53,960 nt of DNA from Bacillota bacterium. Lineage in GTDB: Bacteria; Bacillota; Negativicutes; Sporomusales; CTSoil-080. The stretch lies in contig JAGGAC010000030.1 in the NCBI GenBank assembly GCA_017889635.1, positions 1 to 53,960 on the forward strand. Reading direction: 5' to 3'. Positions 10,851 to 47,705 of the stretch are shown in pieces. A program made the translations under genes and the position numbers. Below the pieces are notes generated by a model, which saw only the letters and a program-made list of their open reading frames with translations, made no database searches and was not told the origin of the DNA. How positions within the stretch are numbered: position 1 is the first letter of the stretch; each line of letters starts with the position of its first letter.

Positions 10851-10941
10851 TGACAAGGTATATATAATGTTTTATTCTTACGCAAATGGTTGTGTAATGC
10901 GAATTTTTGATGTGGCGTCACGGTGATAACAGATTTTTTGC

Positions 10942-10970
10942 TTGCATTTTCTAAAATAGAAACTTATAAT
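10942..10970 (+). promoter_or_regulatory. Sigma-A promoter of the structured RNA
   Basis: TTGCAT (10942-10947), a 17-base spacer, TATAAT (10965-10970). Near-consensus; predicted start about 10977. It lies 260 bases upstream of the next start codon, so the transcript has a long untranslated 5' part. Confidence 0.75.
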
Positions 10971-10976
10971 TTGGGG

Positions 10977-11205
10977 TGAAGAACCTTTTGCTTAGGTCTG
11001 TGGTTGAAAATCGATGCCAGTCGCAGGCGAAACGATCCACATAAGAAGTCCAAAGTGGCTTTGAGCATGGTGCGGCTTAGATGTAAGTCCTGCCGGTTTA
11101 GTTGACCGAGAGAGGTAGTAGTGAGGAGATTGAATTCTTAGTAGCAAACCTTCCAGCAGGCGAGTGTGGGGGCAAAGACCAGGTCGGCTAAGCGATGGTC
11201 CTTTT
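10977..11205 (+). ncRNA. Structured non-coding RNA (raiA-motif candidate)
   Basis: About 230 transcribed bases without a plausible reading frame, behind a near-consensus promoter. The ends pair over a long range: TTGCTTAG (10988-10995) with CTAAGCGA (11188-11195), 8 bp including one G-U. Next to it GTCT (10996-10999) can pair with AGAC (11176-11179). Inside is an extended hairpin: TGTGG (10999-11003)/CCACA (11037-11041), ATCG (11010-11013)/CGAT (11033-11036) and GCC (11016-11018)/GGC (11026-11028). A further stem is CCTGC (11089-11093)/GCAGG (11156-11160). Firmicutes carry a conserved RNA of similar length, the raiA motif, near hpf/raiA; hpf lies 2.6 kb downstream here. That identity is a guess from context and size. 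A riboswitch-like leader of the zinc-ribbon gene is the alternative. Confidence 0.6.
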
Positions 11206-11237
11206 AGTATCAAGATAAAGGTGAGGGGATATCGTTA

Positions 11238-11534
11238 ATGGCTTTCGAGGACAAAACGTTAAAGTGCAAGGATTGTGGGGCAGATTTCGTTTTTACGGCT
11301 GGAGAGCAAGAGTTTTATGCTGAAAAAGGGTTTGAGAATGAACCGGCACGTTGCCGTGACTGCCGTGATGCGAGGCGACGCAGCCGTGATGGCGGTGAAG
11401 TCCGTGCCCAGCGTGAGATGCACGAAGCTGTTTGTGCTGAGTGTGGTGTAACGACGCAAGTGCCGTTTAGACCACGCAATGATCGTCCCATTTATTGTCG
11501 CGATTGCTTTGCCGCTAAAAAGACGGAATTGTAA
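11238..11534 (+). CDS. Small double zinc-ribbon protein
   Basis: A 98-residue protein with two four-cysteine modules. The first is CKDC near residues 10-13 paired with CRDC near 38-41. The second is CAEC near 68-71 paired with CRDC near 88-91. The first resembles the probable zinc-ribbon family PF13451. The second resembles short CxxC-CxxC modules (TIGR04272-like). The region between them is rich in Arg and Asp. It probably binds zinc and perhaps nucleic acid, but no function is known to me. AAGGTGAGGGG stands upstream of ATG 11238. It follows the structured RNA and is followed by its own terminator, so RNA and protein may share one transcript. Confidence 0.75.
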   Translation: MAFEDKTLKCKDCGADFVFTAGEQEFYAEKGFENEPARCRDCRDARRRSRDGGEVRAQREMHEAVCAECGVTTQVPFRPRNDRPIYCRDCFAAKKTEL

Positions 11535-11560
11535 TATTTTTAATTTTTAGCTTAATTGCG

Positions 11561-11586
11561 GCCTGGACATTTAGTCTAGGCTTTTT
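11561..11586 (+). terminator. Rho-independent terminator after the zinc-ribbon gene
   Basis: GCCTGGAC (11561-11568) pairs with GTCTAGGC around a 5-base loop (one G-U), followed by TTTTT. Confidence 0.8.
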
Positions 11587-11639
11587 GCTTGTCTAGATTT
11601 AGTAGGTTTATATTTTTGGCCTAACAGGTTTTGCCCAGG

Positions 11640-11790: not shown

Positions 11791-11820
11791 TTGACAGGCC
11801 TCTTATAGCATAGCTATAAT
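11791..11820 (+). promoter_or_regulatory. Sigma-A promoter of the amino-acid ABC transporter
   Basis: TTGACA (11791-11796), an 18-base spacer, TATAAT (11815-11820). Predicted start near 11828, leaving a leader of about 95 bases before ATG 11924. Confidence 0.8.
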
Positions 11821-11923: not shown

Positions 11924-12589
11924 ATGGAACTAGATTTTGGTCTGATTGTCCGATCCCTTCCACTATTATTGACCGGCGCGGTGGTAACAATCCAGATAAC
12001 GGTGCTCAGCGTAGGTTTTGGATTATTTATTGGAATGTTTGCCGGTATCGCCCGCATGGCAAAGTTTTGGCTTGTACGGGCGGCAGCAACAGTGTATGTA
12101 GATTTTATTCGTGGGACCCCGCTTTTGGTTCAAATTTTTATTATTTATTTTGCTCTTCCTCTTCTGTTGGGAAAGCGTATTGACCCTTTTTTGGCCGCTA
12201 TTACTGCTTGCAGTATTAATAGCGGTGCGTACATTGCAGAGATTTTTCGGGCCGGTATTCAGTCAATTGACAAGGGGCAAATGGAGGCAGGAAGATCCCT
12301 GGGGATGAGCTGGATACAGACGATGTGCTATGTAATTCTGCCGCAGGCTTTCAAGAGAATTATACCGCCTCTTGGAAATGAGTTTATTGCCATGTTGAAG
12401 GATTCTTCACTGGTATCTGTGATCGGCTTTGAAGAACTGACTCGCCGGGGGCAGCTTATTATTGCTCGTACTTACGGATCGTTTGAAATTTGGGTGACAG
12501 TCGCGGTAATTTATTTGATAATGACGCTGACTATTTCGCGTCTGGTTGATTATCTCGAACGGAGGTACAAGATTGATGATAAGCATTAA
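11924..12589 (+). CDS. Polar amino-acid ABC transporter permease (HisM/GlnP type)
   Basis: A 221-residue inner-membrane permease with about five hydrophobic segments. The N-terminal [19 protein letters not shown] stretch is followed by [21 protein letters not shown], the signature of the His/Glu/Gln/Arg permease family. The EAA loop, [22 protein letters not shown], contacts the ATPase. It forms a transporter with the next gene, whose start it overlaps by 14 bases. No periplasmic binding-protein gene lies in the window, so the substrate (glutamine, arginine, cystine or another polar amino acid) cannot be told. Confidence 0.92.
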
Positions 12590-13768: not shown

Positions 13769-14299
13769 ATGGCTATCACTGTACGAGGAAAAAACATCGA
13801 AATTACACCGGCTTTAAAAGACTATGTTGAGAAACGTATTGGCAAGATCACAAAGTATTTTGAGACCTTGAATGACATTGCTGTGGTGTTGACTGTTGAG
13901 AAAGGCCGCCATATAGTAGAGGTTACCGTACCGGTAAACGGGATGCTGTTAAGGGGCGAGGAGTCAACTACCGATATGTACACCTCGATTGATCTTGTAA
14001 TTGAGAAGCTGGAGAAGCAGATTGAAAAGTATAAAACCAAGCTTGCTCGGAAACTACGTGTAGGTACGTTTAAAGGTGATATCGCCGCAGTAAGCCGTGA
14101 TGTCGGCGATGCGGACGAGTTTAAAATAGTCAAAACCAAGCGGTTTGCAGTAAAGCCTATGACCACTGAAGAAGCCCTCTTGCAAATGAATTTGATTAAT
14201 CATGATTTCTATGTGTTTACTAATGCCGAAACTGAAGACGTAAATGTTTTATATCGTCGGAAGGATGGCAATTATGGCTTGATTGAACCAGAATTCTAG
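13769..14299 (+). CDS. hpf: Ribosome hibernation promoting factor, long form
   Basis: A 176-residue long-form HPF (RaiA/YvyD). The N-terminal domain (about 1-100, beginning ITVRGKNIEITPALKDYVEKRI) binds the decoding region of the 30S subunit and blocks mRNA and tRNA. The linker is charged. The C-terminal dimerisation domain (about 120-176) contains VKTKRFAVKPMTTEEALLQM and ends YRRKDGNYGLIEPEF. The long form joins two ribosomes into inactive 100S dimers in stationary phase. GGAAGGGAG precedes ATG 13769. It stands alone between a sigma-H-like promoter and a strong terminator, just before secA as in many Firmicutes. Confidence 0.95.
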   Translation: MAITVRGKNIEITPALKDYVEKRIGKITKYFETLNDIAVVLTVEKGRHIVEVTVPVNGMLLRGEESTTDMYTSIDLVIEKLEKQIEKYKTKLARKLRVGTFKGDIAAVSRDVGDADEFKIVKTKRFAVKPMTTEEALLQMNLINHDFYVFTNAETEDVNVLYRRKDGNYGLIEPEF

Positions 14300-47439: not shown

Positions 47440-47705
47440 AATTACTAATAATTGCTGGGAACGGGAAAAGTAAACGTTGGCAAGCTTTCAGAGAGGTATC
47501 GTCTAGGCTGCGAGCGATGCTAGGTAAAGGCGCGTTGAAGTGCACCCGGGAGCAGGATGGCTGAATATCGAAGTAGGCTGTTTCGGTTGCCCTCCGTTAT
47601 AGGGCTGGGCGAGTATGCCTATAAGTGAGGTGCTTAAGGCATCTAAACAGAGTGGAACCACGGGCCACCGTCTCTGAGCAGGCGGCGGCTCTTTGTTTTT
47701 TGGGG
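47440..47705 (+). promoter_or_regulatory. T-box riboswitch, tRNA-Cys specific
   Basis: The leader carries a Stem I (AGAGAGG region near 47490) and a specifier UGC at 47541-47543 in GAAGTGCACCC, reading cysteine. The T-box core AGAGTGGAACCACGGG (47649-47664) has UGGA at 47653-47656, which pairs with the UCCA end of tRNA-Cys (discriminator U). The terminator stem GCCACCGTCT/AGGCGGCGGC (about 47664-47689) ends in TCTTTGTTTTTT. Uncharged tRNA-Cys should favour the antiterminator and switch on cysE and cysS. Confidence 0.93.

Follow-up and report, generated by a model that had tools for sequence, protein, structure and literature searches.

In the stretch of DNA analysed here (the window; 53,960 nucleotides from a member of the Bacillota), a structured non-coding region precedes a small zinc-ribbon gene. 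Which RNA does it encode, how is it transcribed, and is it connected with the protein encoded behind it? The finding is real, and the RNA belongs to a known family, the raiA-motif or ModT RNAs, which, among bacterial RNAs still lacking an assigned molecular job, rank near the top in abundance and in how well they are resolved. The part worth pursuing is the association with the zinc-ribbon gene, a member of the zf_Tbcl family.

Identity and fold of the RNA

An Rfam scan of the whole window matched raiA RNA (RF03072) at 10987–11196 on the plus strand with 198.5 bits (E 9e-53), compared with a gathering score of 101.3 bits. The match spans model positions 1–209, that is, the model from end to end. 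The region is a full-length raiA-motif (ModT) RNA, far above the curated threshold, and the option named first in the preliminary description was the right one. The extent of about 230 nt given there does not hold for the RNA proper, which occupies 10987–11196; some seven flanking pairs (10979–10985 with 11197–11203) can be added to it. The scan returned two matches in total, the other being a T-box leader (RF00230, 117 bits) at 47448–47678 on the plus strand. The raiA RNA is a single-copy element in the source genome; of 60 relatives, 53 likewise have exactly one match, and all 14 control genomes have none. That the region holds no plausible gene is borne out by 102 homologues, among which a conserved reading frame was sought and none was found. 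A full-length open frame exists on the plus strand in 13 of the 102 and on the minus strand in 40, and no frame is open through all of them; a protein-coding reading is rejected.

The structure reported for raiA/ModT RNAs is a compact monomer (PMC11751092, PMC12286853), and its elements can be located on the plus strand of the window. The two ends are joined by P1, an 8-bp pairing of 10988–10995 with 11188–11195 (one pair being G-U) that had already been recognised from the sequence; it is extended by 10998–11005 with 11177–11187. A lower extension outside the Rfam model, AAGAACC (10979–10985) with GGTCCTT (11197–11203) and one A-C mismatch, is suggested by the sequence, by flank comparison and by the minimum-energy fold. 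P3, read from the sequence on the cryo-EM description (PMC11751092), is a hairpin at 11010–11036, in which ATCG (11010–11013) pairs with CGAT (11033–11036) and GCC (11016–11018) with GGC (11026–11028); the Rfam model differs from this reading and pairs 11014–11016 with 11165–11167. The P3 loop forms pseudoknot pk-1, AGTCGCA (11019–11025) with TGCGGCT (11071–11077), in agreement with the family pairs and with the seven-pair pk-1 of the cryo-EM description (PMC11751092). The P4–P8 region covers 11089–11160, where 11089–11093 pairs with 11156–11160 and hairpins lie inside. With an offset of 10986, residues G20, A21, A22, A28, A33 and G84 of PMC11751092 are the same letters here. An extended internal hairpin at 10999–11041, proposed earlier, appears only in the energy-minimum fold; the family model pairs 11000–11005 with 11177–11185, and the rest of that region is taken by P3 and the pseudoknot.

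Conservation of this fold was assessed in an alignment of 102 raiA RNAs from the source class and other Bacillota. At the 56 family pairs, 90% of cells hold standard pairs; column shuffling brings this down to 77% on average (maximum 78%), and sliding the pair partners by one to three columns lowers the value to 32–46%. Covariation among homologues was found as well, with compensating changes on both sides of P1, P4 and several inner hairpins. Their number, 27 pairs, is close to that in shuffled alignments (mean 24, maximum 27) and is weak by itself, so the paired-cell measure carries the structure argument. In addition, 86 positions are at least 97% conserved, and both pk-1 strands are kept. 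The nested folding energy is ordinary (z = −1.04; 31 of 200 shuffles fold equally well); the evidence for the structure is comparative and does not come from folding energy.

A second GCTTAG copy is indeed present at 11075–11080, where it overlaps the downstream pk-1 strand, and it had been thought to compete for the P1 partner and thus to permit two folds. This copy can pair fully with the 3′ strand of P1 in 54 of the 102 RNAs, mainly because these share the P1 sequence of the source class (GCTTAG/CTAAGC). Elsewhere, P1 is CTTCGG/CCGGAG or another sequence and changes with compensation, whereas the second copy remains GCTTAG or GTCTAG and does not follow. The two-fold idea is therefore unsupported, and it was rejected.

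Promoter, linker and zinc-finger gene

The promoter of the unit lies at 10942–10970 (plus strand) and is identified by sequence and conservation: a −35 element TTGCAT (10942–10947), a spacer of 17 and a −10 element TATAAT (10965–10970). Transcription would start near 10977. Hexamers and spacer are as previously described; the epithet 'near-consensus' was generous, since TTGCAT agrees with TTGACA at three of six positions. A TTGC...TANANT pair occurs upstream of the raiA RNA in 46 of 52 class members, where shuffling predicts 0.24, and the pair is likewise found at 37 of the 46 linked loci from named genomes and, in the phylum sample described below, at 26 of 44 (at most 0.24 expected by shuffling). 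Its conservation across the class argues that the site is real. In most loci the −35 element departs from TTGACA and reads TTGC plus A or T (within the class, CTTGCWTTTTT), and this form is kept across classes (window 10941–10970); it may reflect special promoter control. A separate site at 11791–11820, ahead of amino-acid transporter genes at 11924, is a perfect 12/12 sigma-70 consensus with 18-base spacing.

Downstream of the RNA, a linker of 41 nt (11197–11237, plus strand) contains no terminator and carries the Shine-Dalgarno sequence AAAGGTGAGGGG at 11217–11228. It leads to a gene for a protein of 98 amino acids (11238–11534, plus strand) with zf_Tbcl and zf_Tbcl_2 domains (PF13451, E 2e-25, 88.9 bits; PF23477, E 3e-20, 72.1 bits; TIGR04272), the two Pfam scores being above the curated cut-offs. 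In the protein, a basic linker connects two CxxC...CxxC zinc modules, and C10, C13, C39, C42, C66, C69, C87 and C90 are invariant in 31 zf_Tbcl sequences. An AlphaFold2 model (pLDDT 83.8) likewise has two small zinc modules, with a low-confidence linker. A fold search with this protein was uninformative (top matches at E 0.18 in Foldseek and Z 3.3 in VIA-align), a PDB sequence search gave generic zinc-finger matches only, and the family libraries searched give no function. An intrinsic-terminator-like hairpin, predicted at 11560–11590 on the plus strand (also delimited as 11560–11582), closes the unit. Further downstream, at 13769–14299 on the plus strand, lies hpf (RaiA-family hibernation factor; PF02482, PF16321), the gene after which the raiA motif is named.

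The same layout recurs in other genomes. Terminators are absent from all 113 RNA–zf_Tbcl linkers, a terminator-like site follows zf_Tbcl within 150 nt in 90 of 112 linked loci, and the distance from the RNA to the gene start is 30–46 nt in 107 of 112. Because the linkers have no terminator, the gene is followed by one and the spacing is fixed, co-transcription of RNA and zf_Tbcl is likely.

Fixed spacing on the same strand would also suit a cis-acting leader, in which the RNA, like a riboswitch, would respond to a signal and thereby control expression of the gene behind it. The linker is too short to be likely to hold a separate promoter, the Shine-Dalgarno context is strongly conserved in the class, and Rfam types RF03072 as a cis-regulatory riboswitch. 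However, a riboswitch expression platform was found neither as a terminator in any of the 113 linkers nor as a signal of Shine-Dalgarno sequestration: accessibility is 0.396, against 0.398 for shuffled linkers (p = 0.84; class only, p = 0.29). On this comparison a Shine-Dalgarno switch is not supported and was rejected; the window's own Shine-Dalgarno sequence is predicted to be paired despite this null result across loci. Moreover, 18 of 45 copies from across the phylum have no zf_Tbcl gene behind them, and homologues act in trans (PMC11706538). A cis-acting leader is, in our judgement, quite improbable.

We consider it probable that the raiA RNA forms the 5′ part of a unit made up of promoter, RNA, zf_Tbcl and terminator, that the RNA acts in trans, and that zf_Tbcl is expressed by read-through. 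The conserved promoter would drive this short two-member unit, and the RNA part would be stabilised or cut free by virtue of its compact, P1-closed fold. The abundant structured RNA would most likely act in trans and tune the exit from exponential growth, while transcripts running past P1 would supply the zinc-finger protein, which may serve the same process. Such a role has been reported for the homologous RNAs of Clostridium acetobutylicum and Clostridioides difficile and is taken as the most likely one here.

Depth and history of the zf_Tbcl linkage

A connection with the zinc-ribbon gene had been a good guess, as zf_Tbcl adjoins the RNA downstream in most relatives. Of the 52 class loci that could be evaluated, 46 have it as the next gene after the RNA, unlike hpf, transporter and flagellar genes, whose positions shift by kilobases. 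An even sample of 398 genomes, drawn from the Bacillota alone, contained 47 genomes with the RNA and 45 evaluable copies, 27 of which are directly followed by zf_Tbcl. Conversely, the RNA lies just upstream in 51 of 80 zf_Tbcl loci from named genomes, a set chosen by similarity to the window protein and thus query-biased, and overlapping with the class set. A tree of 125 zf_Tbcl proteins, which rests on a short alignment and leaves many forks unresolved, has linked members on each of its two main sides; about 6 changes account for the linked state, compared with 26.5 when labels are shuffled. In the source group and in many other Bacillota, the RNA appears to be made as the leading part of the zf_Tbcl message.

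The linkage is not universal. Among the unlinked RNAs L138 in G029, L162 in G059, L225 in G644 and L152 in G047, several have a strong terminator directly behind them, which indicates that the class also includes RNAs standing on their own. Where the RNA is unlinked, 12 of 21 genomes lack zf_Tbcl altogether; the RNA is therefore not dependent on that protein. The zf_Tbcl gene, in turn, is kept by each of the seven class relatives in which no RNA was detected. Judged by gene content, then, neither partner strictly requires the other, and a shared function is not obligatory.

These distributions bear on two further explanations. Adjacency might reflect a shared strong promoter only, with zf_Tbcl gaining from read-through and having no functional connection to the RNA. 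A common promoter and terminator suffice for the arrangement, and in C. difficile ModT rivals rRNA in abundance (PMC11706538). Such a benefit does not readily account for the deep retention of one specific gene family at fixed spacing when hpf, transporter and flagellar genes move by kilobases, and we regard this explanation as possible but doubtful. The alternative, that RNA and protein form a ribonucleoprotein or a regulator pair in which the protein binds the RNA, or binds and controls its own leader, is fairly unlikely. It draws on the linked state on both sides of the zf_Tbcl tree, on the absence of the RNA from all five searched genomes with an unlinked zf_Tbcl homologue, on the basic linker between the zinc modules and on initial evidence of protein association for ModT (PMC11706538); the genomes that hold one partner alone and the uninformative fold search count against it.

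A pair of this kind would also fit the survival of the linkage when the RNA shrinks. Ten genomes carry mini raiA RNAs of 113–120 nt (L181, L182, L184, L185 and L219–L224) in two families (f65 and f118), scoring 42–59 bits and thus under the RF03072 gathering score. They retain P1, the P3 hairpin and a possible loop pairing of 4–5 bp like pk-1, and are without P4–P8; all ten precede zf_Tbcl and have the same type of promoter upstream. Being naturally occurring, these short forms indicate which portion of the RNA is important. A shorter match of a different kind, L142 in G033, is a contiguous 105-nt raiA match (contig 118506–118610) that lacks the middle, unlike the mini forms, and is either an assembly error or a decayed copy. 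Taken further, zf_Tbcl could be the ancestral partner of raiA RNA in the Bacillota, acting in binding or maturation and expressed from the same transcript, with the 113–120-nt forms (P1, P3, possible pk-1) as the minimal core that the partnership requires; we hold this to be unlikely. A tightly spaced, deeply kept zf_Tbcl gene on the same predicted transcript offers a concrete candidate in the question of what raiA RNA does.

Comparison with known raiA RNAs

For ModT of C. difficile, high abundance, action in trans and effects on the transition to stationary phase, on sporulation and on c-di-GMP have been reported (PMC11706538). The growth-phase role suggested earlier for the present RNA agrees with that work in another species and may apply here too. 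For the ModT/raiA RNAs studied by experiment, however, no position in front of zf_Tbcl is described, and what they do in trans may not apply here. The usual neighbours of raiA RNA are named as comFC, raiA and periplasmic-binding-protein genes (PMC11706538, PMC11477304). No description of the zf_Tbcl link was found in the ModT/raiA literature covered, the synteny in Soares 2024 and Weinberg 2017 being outside that coverage, and priority is unproven.

With the RF03072 RNA of C. acetobutylicum (cryo-EM structures 9CXF and 9ELY), the window RNA shares the full-length match, P1, P3, pk-1, P4–P8 and the conserved core. An hpf/raiA gene lies 2.57 kb downstream; the immediate downstream gene, zf_Tbcl at 41 nt with no terminator between, is not among the usual neighbours named above. 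ModT of C. difficile belongs to the same RNA family but is flanked by a comFC-like gene and a PTS operon, with its own intrinsic terminator and a long isoform, whereas read-through into zf_Tbcl is predicted here. Finally, the encoded protein resembles other zf_Tbcl/CxxC-x17-CxxC proteins (PF13451, PF23477, TIGR04272) in that both domains are well above cut-off; within that group, a subset is tied to raiA RNA.
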